64,000 bases of DNA from Lactiplantibacillus plajomi (lineage in GTDB: Bacteria > Bacillota > Bacilli > Lactobacillales > Lactobacillaceae). Positions 2,737-57,037 of this stretch are shown here, in pieces (the stretch's first letter is position 1; each line of letters begins with the position of its first letter). Under the pieces are notes generated by a model. It searched no databases, was not told where the DNA came from, and saw only the letters and a list, made by a program, of their open reading frames with translations. The stretch lies in assembly GCF_005405405.1 (NCBI RefSeq), contig NZ_BJDZ01000007.1, positions 1 to 64,000 of the forward strand, in the 5' to 3' direction. Both the position numbers and the translations under genes were made by a program.

Positions 2737-4035
2737 ATGATTGATCGTTATACGCGCCCTGAAATGGGGAAAGTATGGTCGCTAGAAAATCAATATCAAG
2801 CTTGGTTGGAAGTTGAAATTGCGGCGGATGAAGCCTGGGCCGAACTCGGTAAGATTCCGGCCGCCGACGTCGCTAAGATTCGGGACAACGCTAAATTTAA
2901 CGTTGACCGCATCGCCGAAATCGAAGCCGTGACCCATCATGACGTGGTCGCCTTTACCCGGGACGTTTCCGAATCGCTCGGGGACGAACGGAAATGGGTG
3001 CACTACGGGTTAACTAGTACTGACGTGGTCGACACGGCTCAGGGGTACCGCTTGAAGCAGGCGAACGCGATCATTCGCGAAGACTTGCAAACTCTACGCA
3101 CGACGCTAGCACAACAGGCTAAAAAATATAAATACACGGTTGAAATGGGCCGGACCCACGGGGTTCACGCCGAACCGACGACCTTTGGGTTAAAGCTCGC
3201 CCGTTGGTATTCGGAAATTAACCGCAACATCGAACGCTTCGACCACGCCGCAGCCGGCGTTGAAGCGGGGAAGATCAGTGGGGCAGTCGGCACGTTCGCC
3301 AACATTCCACCGTTTGTTGAAAAATTCGTCTGTGATAAGCTTGGGATTCGCGCCCAGGAAATTTCAACGCAGGTCCTACCACGGGATTTACACGCTGAAT
3401 ACATTGCGACAATTGCTTTAATTGCCACCAGCGTGGAAGTCATTGCAACTGAAATTCGCGGCTTACAAAAATCCGAAACCCACGAAGTTGAAGAATTATT
3501 CAATAAGGGGCAAAAGGGTTCCTCGGCGATGCCGCATAAGCGTAACCCAATCGGTTCAGAAAACGTCACCGGGTTAGCCCGCGTCTTGCGCGGTCACATG
3601 ATGACGGCTTATGAAGACGTGCCACTATGGCATGAACGGGACATCTCGCATTCTTCCGCCGAACGGATCATCTTACCAGATTCGACCATTCTGATCGATT
3701 ACATCCTGACGCGGATCAACAAGATCGTTGCAACGTTAACGGTCTTCCCCGAACGGATGAAGCACAACATGGACGCCACGTACGGCTTGATTTACAGCCA
3801 ACGGGTCCTCTTGAAACTTATCGATACCGGCATGTCCCGCGAAGCGGCTTACGACCTCGTCCAACCGTTGACGGCAAAGGCTTGGGACGAACAGTTGCAC
3901 TTCAAACCGTTAGTTGAAGGCAACGCCGAAATTCGTGAGCATTTAGACCAAGCGGCCATCGACGACGCGTTCGATTACCATTACCACCTACGCCACGTTG
4001 ACGACATCTTCAAGCGCCTTGGCTTAGACGACTAA
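2737..4035 (+). CDS. purB: Adenylosuccinate lyase
   Basis: Cytosolic lyase of the fumarase/aspartase superfamily. It splits adenylosuccinate to AMP plus fumarate, and also SAICAR to AICAR plus fumarate, so it serves both AMP synthesis and the de novo pathway. The superfamily signature [14 protein letters not shown] is at about residues 262-275 and carries the flexible catalytic-serine loop; [14 protein letters not shown] and TSTDVVDTA are the other active-site segments. Length 432 is normal. Start ATG is preceded by GAAATGAGGA. Monocistronic, divergent from purA-guaC and closed by a strong terminator at 4047. Confidence 0.96.
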
Positions 4036-5437: not shown

Positions 5438-5651
5438 CTGTGGTTCCTCCTGTAAATGACTTGGTATCTAAAGCATAACGATTTTTATTTAAGCTTACAA
5501 TCGATTTGATTTGTGAATTAACTAGGCGGGGCACGATTTAAATTTCTTCGATGTGAATTGGTGTGAAAACTCGTTGCCAACAACATTAAGTCGTGTTTTA
5601 GACTTAGCGTTACTAAACCGAATAAAGATAATACTTTATTAAATAAGTCCT

Positions 5652-5856
5652 GCTCAATTCCAAGTTAGCAATACCTTGCCAGCCCTCCGGTCAGCGGGAA
5701 TCAGTCCGGAACGCGGTGTCCACGGGGTTAAGCCCGAAGTTCAGGTCTTAACCACCGGGCTTTCACTAACTCGCCAAAAGACGGCGACCAAGTGAAATTT
5801 CACCGCTAGGACCGTTCCCACTTTCCCTGCAGGCTTGAACTGGTCGTTGGCGGGCG
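5652..5856. repeat. Repeat A, copy 1 (205 bp, structured)
   Basis: Non-coding 205-bp element about 89 percent identical by eye to 55557-55761. Conserved potential stems include TCCGG...CCGGA, GGTTAAG...CTTAACC and a compound hairpin TTTCACT/AGTGAAA enclosing TCGCC/GGCGA. No open frame is shared between the copies. It lies in an 875-bp gene-free gap, upstream of repeat B copy 1, the same order and orientation as at 55.6 kb. It could be a structured RNA gene or a small non-autonomous mobile element; I do not recognise the family. Confidence 0.75.
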
Positions 5857-5912
5857 GTAGGGGATAAAAAATAAAGTACGTTTTAGCCCTCTTTTGCCTT
5901 TAAAAAAATCTA

Positions 5913-6075
5913 GGAGCGTGTTAAATAGTTTGTGTAAACGTGCCTTAGTATGATTTTTGTTTTACCCAGGCTATTCAAACATTGAATCCAGTATATCTTG
6001 GCAACTAACGAAGCCATGATGACTACGTCTGCCGTTCCGCTCGTTATAGTTTAAGCACTGTGTAACGGTAAATCG
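5913..6075. mobile_element. Possible insertion-sequence scar
   Basis: The segment at 5913-5943 (GAGCGTGTTAAATAGTTTG and onward through TGTAAACGTGCC) resembles the terminal inverted repeat of IS256-like elements, where a TTTGTGTAAA core is common. On the minus strand, just inside it, an open frame ends with NERNGRRSHHGFVSCQDILD and a stop, which looks like a transposase tail. No other end or transposase body is visible. Identification is tentative. Confidence 0.3.
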
Positions 6076-6094
6076 GGTTAACGAGTCTTCATTG

Positions 6095-6153
6095 ACAAAA
6101 CGAGAGTTCCAACATTTCTCTACTTTTGAGAAGCGTTGGAACTCTCGTTTTGT
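6095..6153. terminator. 19-bp perfect inverted repeat
   Basis: ACAAAACGAGAGTTCCAAC and its exact complement (6135-6153) flank a 21-base loop that itself contains TTCTC/GAGAA. A very stable hairpin with A/T-rich flanks, most simply a bidirectional terminator beyond the 3' end of the 6313-6645 gene. Confidence 0.6.
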
Positions 6154-6312
6154 GTTAAAGGTAACCGATAGAGAACAAAGTAATCACTCATAGCAGCTGT
6201 ATTTAGCTTGAATTTCAATCTTCGATTTATCCAGGACCAAAATACGATCAACATCCGAATTTTTAAAAAATAGCTCAAAACGATTAGAGACAAGTTATTA
6301 AAGAATGGACGC

Positions 6313-6645
6313 TTAATTTAATCCTTTTAAGAAAGAAATGACTCCGTTTATTGATTCTTCATTTAATTCCAATGCATCTAATTGATAAATCCTTTCTTGG
6401 AGAAAATTCCCCTTATAAAAGCGATGTTGTAGGCCGTTTTTTAGAATTAATGCTTGCGGATTCTGCTGCACAATATCATCGATATTTCCCGACGAGGTGT
6501 CTAGCTGTACATGCCAATCCATGGAGACTTCATCAAGTTTATTGTTCAATTTTTCTACAAACTGTTTTTCTTTTTTGTTAAAAATAACTACGGAATCAAT
6601 TATAAATGGTAACCCTTGGTAGACCAAAATACAAACTCTTTTCAT
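6313..6645 (-). CDS. Hypothetical protein, 110 aa, low GC
   Basis: Open frame of 110 codons with ATG preceded by AAAGGA ten bases upstream. I do not recognise the product. The N-terminus (KRVCILVYQGLPFIID) is hydrophobic and strand-like, and the C-terminal half is rich in Q, N, L and E and predicted helical; there is no signal peptide or clear membrane segment. Its base composition is clearly more A+T-rich than the flanking housekeeping genes, and it sits between repeats A and B near an IS-like scar, suggesting acquisition by transfer. A stable hairpin lies downstream (6095-6153), supporting a real transcription unit. Function unknown. Confidence 0.55.
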   Translation of the reverse strand: MKRVCILVYQGLPFIIDSVVIFNKKEKQFVEKLNNKLDEVSMDWHVQLDTSSGNIDDIVQQNPQALILKNGLQHRFYKGNFLQERIYQLDALELNEESINGVISFLKGLN

Positions 6646-6880
6646 ATTTAAGCATTCCTTTCGCTAACGCTCAGAGCACATTGTTATTTAGCTGTTTCTG
6701 ATAGTTCTTCCGAAAACAATTTATCTAGTCCTTTTTATGAAAGATAACAGTGGTGGAACTGTTATCTGTTAACTTCAATTGAATATGGGGTTCGTGTACT
6801 TAAAATCACCGAACCGCGTCAACAACCACGTGGCCAGTTCATTGAATCTGACGCGTTATTAGCTATGGTGCTGTAATTGA
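6646..6880. other. Gene-free stretch before repeat B
   Basis: Contains a perfect hairpin GATAACAGT-ggtgga-ACTGTTATC (6743-6766). It also holds an open but start-less reading frame on the plus strand ending TAA at 6874 (last residues ESDALLAMVL), which may be the tail of a decayed gene. Nothing else is supported. Confidence 0.3.
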
Positions 6881-7032
6881 GGTCCCGAAGCCCTTCGAAA
6901 CATGGCTGTGAAATTGTTGTTGGTCGTCGTACTTTGACGACTTACAACAAGGCCGACTTGGGAGACAATTCGGGGTGTGAATTGGCTTCCGAGCGTGCCC
7001 ACAGCCTTGCTTTCGTTCAGGCGGAGTGGACC
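6881..7032. repeat. Repeat B, copy 1 (152 bp, structured)
   Basis: About 93 percent identical by eye to 56004-56155. The ends pair (GGTCC with GGACC), an inner long-range stem GGCTGTG/CACAGCC closes a multiloop, and two hairpins sit inside. Hairpin 1 is TTGTTGT...ACAACAA with inner GTCGTC/GACGAC; hairpin 2 is GGGAG-A-CAATTC-GGGGTGT-GAATTG-G-CTTCC. Stem differences between copies are compensatory, pointing to a folded RNA. Not recognised as a named Rfam family from memory; strand of transcription unknown. Confidence 0.75.
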
Positions 7033-7119
7033 GCTCTATTAGTGATATTTTAGATGAAGCTGGTTGTAAACAAAAAGCCACTCGGTTCGGAGTGACTTGG
7101 GTAAAAATAATAGCAGGAT

Positions 7120-7578
7120 TTATTTAAGGGTTTCTTTTTGAATACGATCGGCCGGTAAGCTGCGTGGTGTGAAGGTTTCGTTGGTTTGGCCGACGGTGAG
7201 GGCGATTAATGGTTTGAAACCGGCGGGCAAGACGTCACCTGGAATTGAGCCGAGGCTGGCCATGTTATAGTTGGCACCTAAGCCGAGATCTTCGGCAGCC
7301 AGCGCCATGTTGTGGACGATGATGCCGGCAGAAACAGCTTCCATTGTGGTGGCGGCGTTTGCGGCGACGACGATGACGGTTGGCGCACCGTAAATGCCGT
7401 TAAGTTGGGCGAGGACGCTTTCCTTTTGGATGGCAACGATCCGGTAGTTTTCGAATTGGCCCATGCCAACGGCGCCGGCGTTACCAGCGTCGAAAATGGT
7501 TTGAAGTTGGTCGTCAGAAAGCTGACCAGTGTATTCACGAATTGCTTTTCGGGATTGAATCATTTTTAAAGTTTCCAT
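7120..7578 (-). CDS. Short nitroreductase-family protein
   Basis: FMN-dependent NAD(P)H oxidoreductase of the nitroreductase superfamily, 152 residues, at the short end of the family. The N-terminal SRKAIREYTG (about residues 9-18) is the FMN-phosphate-binding motif; AAEDLGLGANY (about residues 92-102) is the second cofactor segment. An upstream in-frame GTG gives five more residues, but the GGGGG ribosome-binding site lies within that extension, so ATG at 7578 is chosen. Probably monocistronic, between repeat B and the divergent glycerate kinase gene. Physiological substrate unknown; nitro compounds, quinones or flavins are usual in the family. Confidence 0.8.
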   Translation of the reverse strand: METLKMIQSRKAIREYTGQLSDDQLQTIFDAGNAGAVGMGQFENYRIVAIQKESVLAQLNGIYGAPTVIVVAANAATTMEAVSAGIIVHNMALAAEDLGLGANYNMASLGSIPGDVLPAGFKPLIALTVGQTNETFTPRSLPADRIQKETLK

Positions 7579-7723
7579 GTAAAATACCCCCACAAATTAA
7601 GATTACTTCTATGATAACGGATTTTGAATCCGTTTGCATCATCGAAATGGCGCTAATGGCGATTGTTGTTAGGTAAAGGGACGATTATACTGAACGTAAG
7701 TGAAAGTTGAAAGAGGGATTGGG

Positions 7724-8842
7724 ATGCACGCCTTAATAGCAATTGATTCATTTAAAAATTCGATGACCAGTATGCGGGCTAATCAGACGGTGGCGGACGC
7801 CTTTGCGCGGTACGGCATTACGGCGGAACGGGTAGCGATTGCTGATGGGGGTGAAGGGACGGTCGCCGCGTTTTTAGCCAACCAACCGGGTGGCCAACGA
7901 ATCAGCGTGGCAACGGTGGACCCGGCTAACCGGCCAATTCAAGCGACGTACGGTTACTTTGAACAGCAGCGGTTGGCAGTAGTCGAAGTGGCGGCGGCTT
8001 CCGGCATTCAGTTTTTATCAGCCGGCTTAACGCCCGCGCAAACCAATACTTACGGTACTGGCTTGTTAATTAAGGCGGCGGTTGAACGCGGGGCGCAAAA
8101 AATCATTGTCGGACTTGGTGGTAGTGGTACCGTGGATGGCGGTGCCGGAATTTTGCGGGCACTCGGAGTTCGTTTTTATGATCAAGCTGATCAGCAATTA
8201 GAAATGGTTGGTGGTGATTTGAATCGGGTGGTCCGGGTCGACCGAAGCCGGTTAATGCCAGCGTTACAGCGCGTTCAACTGATTAGCGCCGCGGACGTGA
8301 CGAATCCGTTAACCGGGCCACAAGGGGCCGCGGCGGTGTTCGGACCGCAAAAGGGGCTCGAACCGGCGAAAGTGGCGACTTACGATGCTGCTATGGCGAC
8401 TTACATGCGGGTTGCGAGTGGTCAAGTCCGTGCCGTGGCAGCGGACGGTGCCGCCGGCGGAATCGGTTTTGCGTTGCGCGAATTTTTAGGCGCAACGGTC
8501 CGCTCGGGGTTTGAGCTGATTGCCGAATTAAGTGGACTGGATGCCCGAATTCAGAAAGCTGACTTGGTTGTTTCCGGTGAGGGTCAAGTGGATGATCAGA
8601 GCTTCATGGGGAAAGTGCCAATTCAAATCAGTCAGCGGGCACACCGCGCGGGGAAGAATTGTTACCTGTTCGTGGGCCGACAACAAGGTCGTAGTGCCGC
8701 CTTTGCCGCTCAGGGGGTGACCGCGGTGTTGCCAATTGTAGACCAGGTGATGGACTTAACCACCGCGCTGCAACGTGGGCCGGAAAACTTAAGCCGGGCG
8801 GCGGAACGGTTGGCCCAAGTGATTACGCAACCGGTTCAGTAA
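7724..8842 (+). CDS. Glycerate kinase
   Basis: Glycerate kinase of the GlxK/GarK family, phosphorylating D-glycerate with ATP and feeding it into lower glycolysis. The 372-residue product begins MHALIAIDSFKNSM, which aligns with the family N-terminus (IAPDSFKGS type). Other conserved features are GIADGGEGT-like IADGGEGTV (about residues 46-54), GLGGSGTVDGGAG (about 134-146) and VVSGEGQVDDQS near the C-terminus. A GTG eight codons upstream is possible, but the ATG at 7724 fits both the family and the GAGGGA ribosome-binding site. Monocistronic with a strong terminator; no glycerate transporter is adjacent. Confidence 0.92.
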   Translation: MHALIAIDSFKNSMTSMRANQTVADAFARYGITAERVAIADGGEGTVAAFLANQPGGQRISVATVDPANRPIQATYGYFEQQRLAVVEVAAASGIQFLSAGLTPAQTNTYGTGLLIKAAVERGAQKIIVGLGGSGTVDGGAGILRALGVRFYDQADQQLEMVGGDLNRVVRVDRSRLMPALQRVQLISAADVTNPLTGPQGAAAVFGPQKGLEPAKVATYDAAMATYMRVASGQVRAVAADGAAGGIGFALREFLGATVRSGFELIAELSGLDARIQKADLVVSGEGQVDDQSFMGKVPIQISQRAHRAGKNCYLFVGRQQGRSAAFAAQGVTAVLPIVDQVMDLTTALQRGPENLSRAAERLAQVITQPVQ

Positions 8843-8845
8843 TCA

Positions 8846-8888
8846 AAAACGGAACGGCGACTAGTTAATTTAGTCGCCGTTCCGTTTT
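8846..8888. terminator. Bidirectional terminator
   Basis: Perfect stem AAAACGGAACGGCGACTA with its complement and a 7-base loop, flanked by T-runs on both strands, between the convergent glycerate kinase and hydrolase genes. Confidence 0.9.
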
Positions 8889-8892
8889 AATT

Positions 8893-9840
8893 TTACTTTG
8901 ATAAATATTGGTCTAAAAAGGCCGCTACGTGTTTTTGATAGTCAGCCGGGCCAATCCAGAAGCTTTCGGCGTGAGTGGCGTTAGGAACTTGCCACATCGC
9001 TTTGGGCCCGCCAGCTGCTTGGTAATTTTTCTTTAGCATCCAACTGGGGACGTAGACGTCCTTTTCACCGTGGATGAAAAAGATTGGTAGGCGGTTATGC
9101 CGCAACTGCTCAACGGAGCTGACATCGCTTAAGAAGTAGCCCATCCGGTGGCGGTTAATAAAACTAACGATCGGTACGAACGGGTATTTCGGCAAGTGGA
9201 ACTGGCGCTTTAACAAGTAGGCCAGTTCTTCTTCAATGCTCGTGTAGCCGCAGTCGGCGATAATCGCCTTAACTTGGTCGGGTAATTCTTCACCGCTCAT
9301 CATTTCCACGGTGGCGCCGCCCATGCTGACGCCGAAGAGGACGATGGTCGTGCGGGAACCGTTCTGCTTAATCACACTTTTGATCCAGCCTAGGTAGTCG
9401 CGGCGGTCCTGCCAGCCAAAGGAAATGTACTGACCGGCACTTTGACCGTGACCGCGGTCGTCGGGCAACAATACGTTATAGCCCATCTGGTTGAACATGT
9501 AGGCGTAGTTGGCCATCGTTTCGCCGTCACCCTTGTAACCGTGGGAAATGATGACGGTCCGGTCACTACTCGTTTTGGCGGGGACGTAGGTTGCCACCAA
9601 GCGGTTTTCATCATCGTTCACGTTTAAGTGCCAGGTTTGTAACGGTTGGCGGTGAAGCCAATCAACGTAGGACCAGTACGCGTCGGCGTATTTTTGTTTG
9701 TCGGCGGATGTCTCGGGGACGTAATCGACCCGTTTAAAAGCAAAGTTATACAATTTTTCGCTTGCAAGTAGCGTCGCTGAAAACAGGGCGAGTGGGGCGC
9801 CGGCAGCGGCGAGTAAGCGTCGTTTCTTCAAATCAATCAC
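8893..9840 (-). CDS. Membrane-anchored alpha/beta hydrolase
   Basis: Serine hydrolase of 315 residues in the YqkD/BEM46-like alpha/beta family. An N-terminal hydrophobic segment (about residues 8-27) looks like an uncleaved signal anchor, so the domain should face outward. The catalytic triad is visible: nucleophile Ser in FGVSMGGA (about residue 175), Asp in HGEKDVYVP (about 263), His in NATHAESFW (about 292). The oxyanion turn HGYKGDGETM is also present. The substrate is unknown; esters of lipids or peptides are usual. It is directly downstream of sRNA-1, whose terminator separates it from upstream transcription. Confidence 0.85.
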   Translation of the reverse strand: MIDLKKRRLLAAAGAPLALFSATLLASEKLYNFAFKRVDYVPETSADKQKYADAYWSYVDWLHRQPLQTWHLNVNDDENRLVATYVPAKTSSDRTVIISHGYKGDGETMANYAYMFNQMGYNVLLPDDRGHGQSAGQYISFGWQDRRDYLGWIKSVIKQNGSRTTIVLFGVSMGGATVEMMSGEELPDQVKAIIADCGYTSIEEELAYLLKRQFHLPKYPFVPIVSFINRHRMGYFLSDVSSVEQLRHNRLPIFFIHGEKDVYVPSWMLKKNYQAAGGPKAMWQVPNATHAESFWIGPADYQKHVAAFLDQYLSK

Positions 9841-9904
9841 TCCTCAAATCTTACTGGTTCATGATACGCTTTGCGCAACGGCGAATGCAAGCGCCGGTAA
9901 TTGG

Positions 9905-10043
9905 ATAAAAAAAGCCATCGCATATGCGATGGTCGGAGTAGTTCATTTCGCCAGGTGGAGAGCCTAGCAAAACTGATTTTCATTAACTTTGGAGGAGTAA
10001 ATGAAAAAGGTTTTGGTAGCCGGGTACGTTGCCTAGTTACCTT
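9905..10043 (-). ncRNA. sRNA-1 of the C-rich-loop family
   Basis: Minus-strand transcript predicted from an extended -10 TGCTACACT (hexamer 10055-10050) to an intrinsic terminator. Hairpin 1 (10007-9977) has stem TTTTCATT/AATGAAAA and a loop with ACUCCUCCAAAG. Hairpin 2 (9968-9950) is GCUAGG-CUCUCCA-CCUGGC. A linker with UACUCC precedes the terminator stem CCATCGCA/TGCGATGG and seven T. The layout matches sRNA-2, -3 and -4. The C-rich loops are complementary to Shine-Dalgarno sequences. The promoter is less certain than for sRNA-2 and -3 because the shared upstream box is missing. Confidence 0.6.
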
Positions 10044-10141
10044 AATGTTAGTGTAGCACTTTAATCGTTAAAGTTGGAGTAAATATGACCCATATTGATC
10101 AAAATCGGTTGTCCTATAACAGTAGTGTCCCCCGGTCAAAA

Positions 10142-10768
10142 TTAAAGGGCGCTGCGGGTCTTTTCTGCCAATTCGTTTTGATGGAAGACTAGCGTGATCG
10201 CTGTTTGCGGCTGGTCTTTGATCTGATTATAGGTTAAAACCTGAATGTTGCGGTGCTTGGTCGCCACGTTATTGACCGCGTTGGGTGGCCCCAGCTTCGT
10301 GACCACTTGGCTGTACGTCGTTCCCGGCTTCAACTTCGTGACCAGGTCGGTCGTCACGCGCGGGTTGGTCGCCAGCTTGGCCATCTGGTAAGACTTGGCG
10401 ACGGCTAACCCGTCATGGAAGCTAATGGTGACAGTAGCACCGGCCAAACTCTTCGTTGTATTTTCCCAAATGTAGGTTTTCAGTGGCTGCTCGTAAGACG
10501 GAAACTTGGTTTCGGTCGTGCGGGTTGCTTTGCCAAAGAGTGCTTTGACCTGGGTCAGCGTGCTAGCGTAGTCGTTCTCGGTAACGGCGAGCTGAATTCG
10601 CTCAAAGTTAGCCCGACTGACCTGCACGGCCGGTTCATTGGATGTTTTCACTTGTTTAGTTGTGGTGCTTGGTTCGCGTTGAATGGCCGGCTGCGCCGTG
10701 GATTGGGTACACGCTGCTAGTAGTAACGTCAACGTGAGCCCGACTCCGATGGTCAGCGTTCGAAACAT
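10142..10768 (-). CDS. DUF3862-like lipoprotein
   Basis: Secreted lipoprotein of 208 residues. The start at 10768 (MFRTLTIGVG) is preceded by TAGGGG and begins a typical lipoprotein signal ending in the lipobox LLAAC, so the mature protein should be lipid-anchored at Cys21 on the outer face of the membrane. The longer upstream frame lacks a signal and is rejected. After a low-complexity linker come two BLIP/SmpA-like repeats, each with a VTEN- or LKPGTTYSQVVTKLGPPN-type helix-turn segment. This arrangement is the Firmicute DUF3862 family. Molecular function unknown; such domains usually mediate protein contacts in the envelope. Lies between sRNA-1 and sRNA-2, all on one strand. Confidence 0.75.
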   Translation of the reverse strand: MFRTLTIGVGLTLTLLLAACTQSTAQPAIQREPSTTTKQVKTSNEPAVQVSRANFERIQLAVTENDYASTLTQVKALFGKATRTTETKFPSYEQPLKTYIWENTTKSLAGATVTISFHDGLAVAKSYQMAKLATNPRVTTDLVTKLKPGTTYSQVVTKLGPPNAVNNVATKHRNIQVLTYNQIKDQPQTAITLVFHQNELAEKTRSAL

Positions 10769-10865
10769 GATTAAATCCCCTAACGTATGTAAGACTGTTA
10801 TTTTTAGAGAATACCATTGATTAAGGAAAATGTACATAGGGTGCCGGTTAGTTAAGGGGGACAAC

Positions 10866-11018
10866 AAAAAACCACCGTATCGGGGAATACGGTGGAAAAA
10901 GGAGTAGGGTAGACACGTGATGGGGAGTCACGTGCCACTATGAATTTCATTACTTTGGAGGAGTAAATGAAAAATTTTAGGTTGTGTTATAGCGGATTGA
11001 GTTAACCTCAATTGCTAT
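10866..11018 (-). ncRNA. sRNA-2 of the C-rich-loop family
   Basis: About 153 nt on the minus strand. An additional 5' hairpin (ATAGC..ATTGAG/CTCAAT..GCTAT) precedes hairpin 1 (10971-10946, TTCATTTAC/GTAATGAA, loop TCCTCCAAA) and hairpin 2 (10934-10914, perfect CACGTGA-CTCCCCA-TCACGTG). The linker carries UACUCCUUUUU. The terminator CCACCGTAT-TCCCCG-ATACGGTGG plus six T ends near 10866 and shares its loop and most of its stem with sRNA-3. The promoter has -10 TATGAT (11030-11025) and a TTCACA direct repeat in place of a -35. Confidence 0.75.
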
Positions 11019-11024
11019 GATGTT

Positions 11025-11056
11025 ATCATACCGAGTGGCTGTGAAGAATGTGTGAA
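11025..11056 (-). promoter_or_regulatory. sRNA-2 promoter with TTCACA direct repeat
   Basis: On the minus strand TTCACA-N5-TTCACA (11056-11051 and 11045-11040) lies upstream of -10 TATGAT. The -35 position is non-consensus (ACACAT), as expected for an activator-dependent promoter. The 14-mer CACACATTCTTCAC is shared, apart from one W position, with the sRNA-3 promoter at the same distance from the -10. An 11-bp direct repeat is the classic layout for OmpR/PhoB-family response regulators. Confidence 0.55.
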
Positions 11057-11174
11057 TGAACTGCTCGATTGGTTTGAAAAAAAGGCTAAGGAATTCTAAA
11101 AGCCATTGATGAGTGCGTGCCCAAGGTTGGCTGACCTTGGCTGCACGTTTTGGCTATGATTGTTTGGAAACGAA

Positions 11175-11202
11175 AGGGGCCGTGACTTTTGCCACGGCCC
11201 CT
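11175..11202. terminator. Terminator after the YugP-like gene
   Basis: Stem AGGGGCCGTGRC with complement and tetraloop, 11 bases beyond the stop of the minus-strand metallopeptidase gene, followed on that strand by TTTCG. Confidence 0.75.
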
Positions 11203-11212
11203 GGGTATCGAT

Positions 11213-11911
11213 TTAATTATCGTCGCGGTTGCCACCGAATAAGATGATCAATCGGAGTAATTGTAAGAAGGTCGCTAAGGCAGCGGCAACGTAGGTCAAC
11301 GCGGCGGCGGTCAACACCTTGCGAACCATCGGTACTTCGTCGCGGGTCAGGACCTGACCGTTGGCTAAAATCTGAAGTGCGCGTCTGGAAGCGTTGAATT
11401 CGACCGGCAGCGTCACGAGTTGGAAGAGTAACGCTAATGAGAATAATAGAATCCCGATGTGAATCAGCGTTTGGTTATAACTGAGTAGCACGCCAACGAT
11501 GATGATTGGCAATGACAAGGTCGAGCCAAGGTTAGCTGCCGGAACGAGCGCCGTTCGTAAGCGCATTGGCCAGTAGTTGACGTGGTCCTGAACGGCGTGT
11601 CCGCATTCGTGGGCGGCAACGCCGATGGCCGCAACCGATGGTGAATCGGCGGTCGCTTCGGATAAGCTGAGCACCTTGGTCTGGCCATTGTAGTTATCGG
11701 TCAGATCACCGCTGATTTTTTGTACCCCAACGTTGTTAATGCCCGACTGTGCGAGAATGAAACGGGCCGCGTCACTGCCCGAATAGTTCGATTGACTTCG
11801 GTAAGCATCGTATTTTCGGAACGTGTGGTTGACGTAACCGGAAGCCGCCATTGAAATGACGATGCCGATGATGACCAAGAAATAAGTTGAATCAAAAAAT
11901 GGGTAGAACAA
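11213..11911 (-). CDS. Membrane zinc metallopeptidase, YugP family
   Basis: Integral membrane putative zinc peptidase (YugP / Peptidase_Mpr-like), 232 residues, the usual length. The zinc motif AAHECGHAVQDH (HEXXH, about residues 100-111) is followed by four or five hydrophobic helices. An N-terminal helix is also present, and EFNASRRAL (about 170-178) carries the downstream conserved Glu region. Start codon is TTG with AGGAGG nine bases upstream. Biological substrate unknown; role in membrane-protein turnover is only inferred from the family. Transcribed alone, ending in the terminator at 11175. Confidence 0.85.
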   Translation of the reverse strand: MFYPFFDSTYFLVIIGIVISMAASGYVNHTFRKYDAYRSQSNYSGSDAARFILAQSGINNVGVQKISGDLTDNYNGQTKVLSLSEATADSPSVAAIGVAAHECGHAVQDHVNYWPMRLRTALVPAANLGSTLSLPIIIVGVLLSYNQTLIHIGILLFSLALLFQLVTLPVEFNASRRALQILANGQVLTRDEVPMVRKVLTAAALTYVAAALATFLQLLRLIILFGGNRDDN

Positions 11912-29787: not shown

Positions 29788-29905
29788 GAGTGTGACAAAA
29801 GTCGGTTAGCTGGTGAGCATAACGGCGTAAGGCGAATAATCCTGGGCTTGGATTGTTGGACTTACGGGGTTAAGCGGAGCCGGCTGACTTTTGGCGCACG
29901 TTTCG
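29788..29905 (+). repeat. Repeat C, copy 1 (118 bp, structured, 3' UTR)
   Basis: About 90 percent identical to 44681-44799. Folds as one long interrupted hairpin: AAAAGTC/GACTTTT, AGCTGG/CCGGCT, GTAAG/CTTAC and AATAATCC-tgggctt-GGATTGTT. Differences between the two copies preserve pairing. Lies in the 3' region of the PTS gene and is followed by a terminator hairpin at 29929. A short open frame inside (RIILGLDCWTYGVKR) is judged spurious. Confidence 0.75.
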
Positions 29906-29928
29906 ACTATCAATATTCGGAGAAACAC

Positions 29929-44680: not shown

Positions 44681-44799
44681 GAGTGGGACAAAAGTCGGGT
44701 AGTTGGTGAGCATTAACGGCGTGAGGCGAATAATCCTGGGCTTGGATTATTGGACTTACGGGGTTAAGCGGAGCCAGCTGACTTTTGGCGCACGTTTCG
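44681..44799 (+). repeat. Repeat C, copy 2 (119 bp, structured, 3' UTR)
   Basis: Second copy of the element at 29788. It starts immediately after the LysR stop codon and is followed by an intrinsic terminator at 44824, so it forms the 3' UTR of the regulator mRNA. Relative to copy 1, stem pairs change from C-G plus U-G to U-G plus U-A (AGTTGG/CCAGCT) and from U-G to U-A (AATAATCC/GGATTATT), preserving the fold. Confidence 0.75.
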
Positions 44800-44823
44800 G
44801 CTCAATTACCAACAACACGTACC

Positions 44824-55556: not shown

Positions 55557-55761
55557 GCTCGATTCCAAGCTAGCGTTTCCTTGCCAGTCCTCCGGTCAGC
55601 GGAAATCAGTCCGGAACGCGGTGGTCACGGGGTTAAGCCCGAAGTGCGGATCTTAACCGCCGGGCGTTCACTAACTCGCCAAAGGACGGCGACCAAGTGA
55701 AACTTCACCGCTGGGACTGTTCCCGCTTTCCCTCCAGGCTTGAACTAGTCGTTGGCGGGCG
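55557..55761. repeat. Repeat A, copy 2 (205 bp, structured)
   Basis: Second copy of the element at 5652, about 89 percent identical and collinear over its whole length. Same potential stems TCCGG/CCGGA, GGTTAAG/CTTAACC, TTCACT/AGTGAA and TCGCC/GGCGA. Followed 242 bases later by repeat B copy 2; that AT-rich gap (55762-56003) shows no gene. Confidence 0.75.
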
Positions 55762-56003
55762 TTAACGCGTTAATTTATATGAATGGATTGAATCAGTCTG
55801 GTGATTGATTACTGAATGGTGGTCACTACTTCGAAAATCAAGAATTTTAAGATCTATTCATCCATAATTACTAATTCAAGTTATCTATTAGTGGAATCCA
55901 AATTGATATGATTTTAGGATGCTAAGGATTAGTGAACGGCATCGTCAACCACGCTACTAGTTTATTAAATCTAACAAGTTATTAGTTAACGAGACGTAAC
56001 CGA

Positions 56004-56155
56004 GGTCCCGGAGCCCTTCGAAACATGGCTGTGAAATTGTTGTTGGTCGCCGTTGTTTGGCGACTTACAACAAGGCCGACTTGGAAGACAATTTGGGGTG
56101 TGAATTGGCTTCCATGCGTGCCCACAGCCTTGCTTTCGTGTAGGCGGAGCGGACC
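56004..56155. repeat. Repeat B, copy 2 (152 bp, structured)
   Basis: Second copy of the element at 6881. Compared with copy 1, GTCGTC/GACGAC becomes GTCGCC/GGCGAC (compensatory) and GGGAG/CTTCC becomes GGAAG/CTTCC (wobble to Watson-Crick), while CAATTC/GAATTG becomes CAATTT/GAATTG (wobble). The fold is therefore conserved. Confidence 0.75.
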
Positions 56156-56275
56156 GGTGTGTTGACCGTATTTCTAGAAGTTTTTGAATTTTTTAAAATA
56201 TAAGTGGTTGTTAATTAGCGTCAATTGAAAAAACGAACTTACCACGGTCGTGGCAAGTTCGCTAAAATAATGGCA

Positions 56276-57037
56276 TTAACGTTTTTTGTAGCTGAGGTAG
56301 TAGAGCCCACCGACTAGGCCGGCACCGCCGAGGACGTTGCCGAGGTAGACGGGGATGATGTTCATGAAGAACTGGCCCCAGGTGGCGCCACCTTCGAAGA
56401 TGGCGGCGGGAATCAAGAAGCAGTTGGCGACACTATGTTGGAAACCGATGGCAACGAAGGCCATGATGGGGAACCAGATGCCGAGAATCTTGCCGGCGCC
56501 GTCTTTGGCGGAGGCGGCTAACCAAACGGCGATGCCGACGAGCCAGTTACAGCCGATGCCGGAAACAAGGCTGGGCCAAAATGACATGGCGATTTTACCC
56601 TGGGCCATGGTGATGAGGGTGGTGCGAAAGGCGCCGGTGTGGGTTAAGCCGGTAAAGTGGCCGAGGAAGAACGCGACTCAGACAGCGCCAACGAAGTTCA
56701 TCAGGCTGATTTCTAATAAGTTGAGTAGGAATGAGCGTAGTTTAATTTTGCGGTCGTAGGTGGCTAAGCTGACGACCATCATGTTACCGGTGACGAGTTC
56801 GCCACCCATGAGTAAGATGACAATCAGACCGAGCGGGAAGACCCCCGCGCCGAGAATCGTCGCGAAGCCGCCGAAACTAGCGGGGAGCGCGCCGGCAACC
56901 CGGACGTCGGCTAAGAAACCGAGTGCGATCAAGGCACCACCGAAAAAACCGAGAATTAATTTTGAAAGTAGCGGTAATTGGACTTTAGCAACCCCTTTAG
57001 CAATGCTATTGGGTAAAACTTCTTGTGGACTATACAT
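56276..57037 (-). pseudogene. Formate/nitrite channel (FNT) gene with internal stop
   Basis: One frame, 253 codons, encodes an FNT-family channel (FocA/NirC-like) of six membrane helices. It is interrupted by an in-frame TGA at 56680-56678 (after NFVGAV, before VAFFLGHFTG). The flanking halves are otherwise intact: LPLLSKLILGFFGGALIALG, MGGELVTGNMMVV (omega-loop region) in the first, FWPSLVSGIGCNWLVGIAVW and QHSVANCFLIP in the second. TGG to TGA (Trp to stop) is the simplest cause. A truncated first part (119 residues) could not form the pentameric channel. Family length is about 260-280, so nothing else seems missing. Confidence 0.85.

Follow-up and report, generated by a model that had tools for sequence, protein, structure and literature searches.

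Introduction

The unit of a REPIN or BIME is a short hairpin, some tens of nucleotides long. The Efa-1 element of Enterococcus faecalis is reportedly identical to EFAR, which a 2007 FEMS abstract is said to describe as an element of ~170 bp that is composed of many sequence types and inserts at stem-loops. REPINs are characterized, in the sections of the paper drawn on here, as inverted pairs that are extragenic, present in high copy number and found both as singlets and in tandem clusters (PMC3116915). For Efa-1, the corresponding excerpt gives a length of 163 bp, 65 copies and paired adjacent stem-loops (PMC2267715), while YPAL/RU-2 of Yersinia is introduced in the excerpted text as a mobile intergenic element of ~168 bp (PMC2229807).

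In the present work, we examine a related repeat in a stretch of 64,000 nucleotides from Lactiplantibacillus plajomi, called the window below. The repeat, B, had been assigned in a first-pass annotation to a conserved three-way-junction RNA. We will argue that it is probably one arm, the right one, of a miniature mobile element of structured DNA in the Lactobacillales, which would be REPIN/EFAR-like, non-autonomous and moved in trans, a reading that we favor over all others combined, and that builds on the homology and inverted layout of the arms, their covariation, their dispersal, their lineage-specific sites and the gain or loss of arm units.

Each of the known systems matches the locus in part. 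As in the REPINs and BIMEs of the cited excerpt, two palindromic units are inverted within one dispersed extragenic unit that occurs as singlets and tandem clusters; unlike there, the present arms are three-way junctions of 100-150 nt, separated by a spacer of mostly 100-700 bp, and no RAYT dependence is seen. Efa-1/EFAR is likewise intergenic, dispersed and foldable, and belongs to an order in which another family also has weak homologues of the arms, but the excerpt describes two adjacent stem-loops instead of a three-way junction, the comparison being one of descriptions only. With YPAL/RU-2 the locus shares inverted repeats that are internal rather than terminal, and targets at or beside dyad symmetry; what sets it apart, again by description, are the other hosts and the inverted two-arm layout, which the consulted part of that paper does not describe (PMC2229807). 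In a literature search that was thin on subscription papers, no account of the arm family was found.

Results and Discussion

Repeat B occupies positions 56002-56157, with its canonical polarity on the plus strand. The end pairing GGTCC/GGACC and the GGCTGTG/CACAGCC stem around two hairpins, which the first-pass annotation had reported, are present in the window sequence, the first forming the outer stem, with middle stems between the two. It is important to point out that the interval annotated originally, 56004-56155, leaves out the other half of the element. Upstream of B lies repeat A (55557-55764), delimited by DNA similarity and matched 20 times in the genome, 18 times over nearly its full length. 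It is a homologue of B on the opposite strand, and each of the two matches the other's model on the opposite strand. The left arm core inside A (55593-55734, minus strand) forms the same three-way junction as B and carries the canonical CGTTCC motif. The whole first element, whose outer edges are approximate, spans 55557-56163 and consists of the left arm, an AT-rich spacer at ~55765-55885 and the right arm.

Two models were used to score the arms. R1 was built from the window's own genome (G000) and a second species (G006), and R3 from the arms of other genomes, collected and aligned with R1. With R3, repeat B scores 124.5 bits and the left arm 70 bits (55597-55729; 49.5 bits for the core with R1). 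R3 also recovers a second element at 5652-7040, with its right arm, the other copy of B in the window, at 6879-7033 (plus strand, 125.6 bits) and its left arm at 5687-5830 (minus strand, 80.2 bits), both A copies being found on the strand opposite to the B copies. Here the arms are separated by ~780 bp of extra DNA (about 5860-6760), in which there is a 110-aa ORF (6313-6645, minus strand) without a Pfam match.

The same layout is found elsewhere. Arms were detected by nhmmer at 116 of the 119 listed pattern loci (the exceptions are L156, L158 and L230), 246 arms in total. Among 100 neighboring pairs less than 1500 bp apart in these loci, several of which come from the same genomes, 87 have a minus-strand arm followed by a plus-strand arm, none has the reverse order and 13 are on the same strand. 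Full-length arm matches are mostly three-way junctions of 130-160 nt, and the spacer contains no recognized gene. An internal ORF of at least 100 aa occurs in 3 of 106 clusters in the listed loci, after setting aside 40 clusters at locus edges and all ORFs overlapping an arm. In the own genome, where ten clusters contain both arm types, with left arms first and sometimes multiplied (for example A-A-B-B-B on contig 6), such an ORF lies inside three of the ten, and two of these ORFs run through arms. In one further cluster (C29) a left arm lies where the contig ends, and in another (C33, L047 about 5630-11290) 4.8 kb of genes are enclosed by two left arms and what remains of a right arm (52 bp), which we read as a broken element. 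By eye, these genes are metabolic (a transporter, a flavoprotein and a LysR-type regulator), as if an operon had entered the element. An autonomous element with a transposase between the arms was considered as well, and was rejected, as no minus-plus pair more than 1500 bp apart is found in the 119 listed loci.

We now turn to the fold. Two changes between the copies had been put forward as preserving the pairing. The first, GTCGTC/GACGAC versus GTCGCC/GGCGAC, is present, the partner copy being that at 6879-7033. In the second, GGGAG/CTTCC versus GGAAG/CTTCC, the pairing is indeed kept, but the change is one-sided, from G-U to A-U, and not a double one. In an alignment of 21 copies from the two species, with single BLAST matches of 71-87% identity, 65 two-sided cells are obtained, compared to 18.9 in shuffled alignments (0 of 500 shuffles as high), and the measure called further pair types is not significant in these 21 copies (69 of 500 shuffles as high). 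One G006 copy (C73) was excluded from alignment A3 because it diverges beyond the first hairpin.

The signal is considerably larger in other lactobacilli. An alignment of 150 arms (A6; the best 150 of 191 matches, from 94 of the 119 listed pattern loci) yields 2051 two-sided cells versus 574.7 in the shuffles, with 0 of 500 as high (32 of 500 for further pair types). In this alignment 94.2% of the cells are paired, a value that drops to 35-46% when the partners are slid by 1-3 columns. Since the alignment was fitted to the structure, 79 diverse arms were realigned without it. The unguided combination of MAFFT and RNAalifold returned the same stem and two hairpins, with 41 pairs, 94.6% paired cells and 817 two-sided cells (shuffled mean 236, maximum 274 in 200 shuffles). 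A conserved three-way junction with compensatory changes, as originally suggested, is confirmed on further copies, with a strong signal in structure-fitted and structure-free alignments alike. The unpaired core positions are conserved like the stems (1.14 and 1.04 bits, respectively).

As for the folding energies, the repeat B piece has a z-score of -5.9 as RNA (-74.5 kcal/mol) and of -7.2 as DNA, none of 200 shuffles being as good in either case. For the left arm including flanks (195 bases), the DNA z-score is -2.6 and 2 of 200 shuffles are as good, a modest folding that we count against the mobile structured-DNA reading.

The arms are numerous and widely dispersed. In the own genome, repeat B has 18 BLAST matches, and the final model finds 36 arms, 14 of them B-like, 18 A-like and 4 of another subtype. 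At least 150 arms are present in one genome (G150, assigned by inference to Lapidilactobacillus achengensis), in which all 150 scored candidates match; five other genomes have 55, 28, 27, 25 and 9. R1 matches at least 98 of 397 Lactobacillaceae genomes, distributed over 11 of 40 genera, a lower bound given that the model comes from two species and that the seven best candidates were scored in each genome. R3, applied to 395 genomes of the order, matches 26, and 24 of these are Lactobacillaceae. The named carriers belong to Lactiplantibacillus, Lapidilactobacillus, Levilactobacillus, Companilactobacillus, Lacticaseibacillus, Schleiferilactobacillus, Limosilactobacillus (a metagenome bin) and Pediococcus. 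A BLAST search for the window's own subfamily detects it in 2 of 21 Lactiplantibacillus genomes, the own one included. In a second family of the order, R3 gives weak matches of 24.6-32.7 bits in 3 of 6 genomes of one genus (g62); in the alignments listed, several of the unpaired motifs can still be recognized, and a partly complementary inverted partner lies near one of the copies. With regard to a plasmid or phage origin, repeat B has no match in plasmids or phages, and neither a copy from the second family (L291) nor a whole G150 element has a match in plasmids. The arm family is abundant in food and gut lactobacilli and patchy between sister species, with at least 150 structured sites in a single genome.

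The sites differ between related genomes. We compared 21 Lactiplantibacillus guaB loci, with up to 1.5 kb on each side and one of them truncated where its contig stops. Five have arms by nhmmer: in the own genome at the window's site, in G007 downstream of guaB, and in G017, G005 and G009 (upstream of guaB). Among these loci, the window's site is occupied in the own genome only. G008 has the helix-turn-helix gene and the response-regulator side as well, without an arm between them. The pair of arms just downstream of guaB in G007, by inference Lactiplantibacillus herbarum, is missing from the 10 congeners compared.

A closer comparison is provided by L. achengensis and L. luobeiensis, whose matching stretches are 89-95% identical. 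One orthologous locus has an arm unit (net 273 bp) in the former but not in the latter, with an end hairpin left over. At a second locus, the spacers of the two species differ by a hairpin unit of a second type, 121-125 bp long. These differences are direct comparative evidence for the gain or loss of modules. The modular assembly that is reported for EFAR has its counterpart here in these two units, the arm unit and the second hairpin, by which the sister species differ. EFAR is also said to insert at stem-loops. Some of the present copies abut terminators, but a clean empty site for a whole element was not recovered. The search for such sites compared 256 flank pairs, many of them redundant, with 316 loci, and among these no whole two-arm element had a clean pair of filled and empty sites that would define a target duplication. 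The usable comparisons give presence or absence and module differences, not the exact edges of a whole element. Fifteen aligned G150 stretches (13 of 727-742 bp and two longer) for the most part, in the rows listed, share edges and arms but not flanks; in these rows neither terminal inverted repeats nor a clear target-site duplication is evident, and the left edge is degenerate. We count this outcome and that of the search for filled and empty sites against the mobile-DNA reading.

The second hairpin unit is a miniature structured element in its own right. It has the ends ACCCAGAGTG...CACGTTT and a possible 4-bp CAAC duplication, and it is cleanly inserted in a type-1 spacer of L. achengensis (L191 about 2987-3110), while L. 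luobeiensis does not have it (L140 about 718-724). By eye, it also interrupts a left arm in L133, and is seen near guaB in another Lactiplantibacillus; the loci noted for it include L127 and L268.

The proposal that the fold is a functional ncRNA or a ribozyme-like mobile RNA is retained as far as the mobility is concerned. The RNA part is unlikely, although it fares better than the other alternatives. According to this scenario, the arms would be transcribed outward and the fold would act in the RNA. The very strong covariation and the conserved unpaired motifs are what such an RNA would display, and the RNA fold of -74.5 kcal/mol points the same way. The base pairs do not: in 102 arms less than 88% identical to each other, there are 4638 Watson-Crick, 188 G-U and 58 A-C pairs, and 60 of the 188 G-U fall in a single column pair whose bases do not really pair. 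G-U amounts to 109 of 3025 standard pairs in the unguided alignment, and its share of the pairs is about 3-4%. RNA helices usually hold clearly more G-U.

G-U nevertheless exceeds A-C in the arms' own polarity, with ratios of 82:25 for left arms and 106:33 for right arms; for the arms of the own genome and G006 they are 36:9 for A, half of the 36 being at one column pair, and 70:21 for B. Such an excess is also expected from RNA, and we count it against the mobile-DNA reading. However, the same bias in the canonical polarity of both arms means that the folding strand is opposite between them, and homologous arms on opposite strands with the same bias are not expected from a single transcript. 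A single long RNA spanning A and B is disfavored on the same ground, each arm keeping its canonical polarity on its own strand.

Signs of transcription were sought around 231 arms. Promoter-like sites at the start side of the arm transcripts number 17, versus 27.0 in mononucleotide shuffles, and T-runs at the transcript end are found at 38 of 231 arms, versus 30 of 240 on the inner side, so neither is enriched. The window's own region does have 4 promoter-like sites versus 1.3 expected, counted against the mobile-DNA reading, and one of them (55948-55919, minus strand, 9 of 12), located in the spacer, points toward the left arm, as the RNA scenario would have it. Rfam 15 has no match in the window; a search with 841 bases gave five hits below the gathering score, the best with an E-value of 2.4, and in 18 arm-bearing loci (141 kb) the sole match is SRP RNA, away from the arms. 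The patchy distribution over the family genomes speaks against the RNA scenario as well. From the low G-U content, the opposite-strand polarity and the lack of promoter and T-run enrichment, we infer folded DNA, in which the position of an arm is near the 3' side of the strand that carries it. Covariation is usually taken as strong evidence for a functional RNA. As it is accompanied here by few G-U pairs and by mirror-image arms on opposite strands, which point to folded DNA, ncRNA surveys may take the family as a warning, and methods for telling structured RNA from structured DNA can be tried out on it.

In the mobile structured-DNA mechanism, the active form of the arms would be folded DNA, either single-stranded or cruciform, with each arm on the 3' side of the strand to which it belongs. 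A putative trans-acting enzyme, not simply a RAYT, would recognize the folded arms, which would explain the spread of the element. Effects on adjacent genes, such as on 3' ends or termination, would be side effects. More tentatively, and with less confidence than in the mobile element as such, we suggest that this could be an undescribed, order-wide class of mobile DNA, gene-less and growing by arm modules, in which a putative non-Y1 enzyme recognizes, at each of the two ends and on opposite strands, a folded DNA three-way junction whose unpaired motifs are fixed. Such an enzyme, once found, would open up the biology of the element and perhaps provide a tool.

Another option is that the copies are kept for a host function at gene ends, as terminators, mRNA stabilizers or sites for nucleoid proteins, which we regard as quite improbable. 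The arms are indeed intergenic: in the listed loci, ORFs of at least 200 aa are overlapped by more than 60 bases by 6 of 246 arms, compared to 334 of 476 random intervals. With ORFs of at least 100 aa the numbers are 58 of 246 and 388 of 476; these 58 arms, covered by ORFs of a size expected by chance, are counted against the mobile-DNA reading, as are the ORFs inside three of the ten own clusters. The intergenic location rests on this overlap count, since the count of 3 of 106 clusters and the distances to gene ends both disregard any ORF that shares more than 60 bases with an arm. In the listed loci, gene 3' ends are somewhat nearer to the arms, with a median of 139 bp (n=116) versus 188 bp (n=102), and some G150 copies lie very close to such ends: L122 and L125 begin on a terminator T-run or a few bases from it, and L120, L121 and L127 end 7-9 bp from the stop codon of a convergent gene. 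A gene-end function does not agree, on the other hand, with the absence of an orientation preference relative to unfilled intergenic regions (p 0.47, listed loci), with the lineage-specific sites, or with the first window element being flanked by two intact terminator-like hairpins. An insertion preference for convergent genes was also considered; it was dropped, as 5 of the 9 own clusters with both flanking genes known are convergent and 4 co-directional, with no bias in the 119 listed loci.

Membership in the REPIN/BIME class, that is, palindromic units in inverted pairs mobilized by a RAYT (Y1) transposase, is highly improbable. The inverted extragenic pairs, the high copy number, the singlets and the tandem clusters fit what the quoted sections report (PMC3116915), but neither a RAYT association nor a short hairpin is found, the arms being junctions of 100-150 nt. 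A Y1_Tnp domain is present in 9 of 16 arm-bearing Lactiplantibacillus genomes and in 4 of 5 in which no arm was found, where arms may still be present, seven candidates per genome having been scored; it is absent from 5 of 8 arm-bearing Lapidilactobacillus genomes. The distribution of the Y1/RAYT transposase does not track the arms. By eye, no transposase is seen among the 25 largest groups of the 1007 ORFs near arms. That no enzyme was found in these comparisons counts against the mobile-DNA reading.

It is very unlikely, finally, that there is no structural selection and that template-switch correction and gene conversion maintain the perfect palindromes of an old repeat. The almost exclusive Watson-Crick pairing and the presence of alternative stem alleles in one genome would fit, but the unpaired core is conserved like the stems, internal mismatches are retained across genera, and the stems differ between genera while the shape is constant. 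Concerted evolution or quasi-palindrome correction could still add to the compensatory changes, which we count against the mobile-DNA reading.

Two further features of the window may be mentioned. Beside the first element, at 56276-57037 on the minus strand, a formate/nitrite transporter gene is split into two frames, each matching PF01226, which is either an interrupted gene or an assembly error. A separate dispersed repeat of 89 nt is found at 29820-29908 and 44714-44802, the copies being 96% identical.
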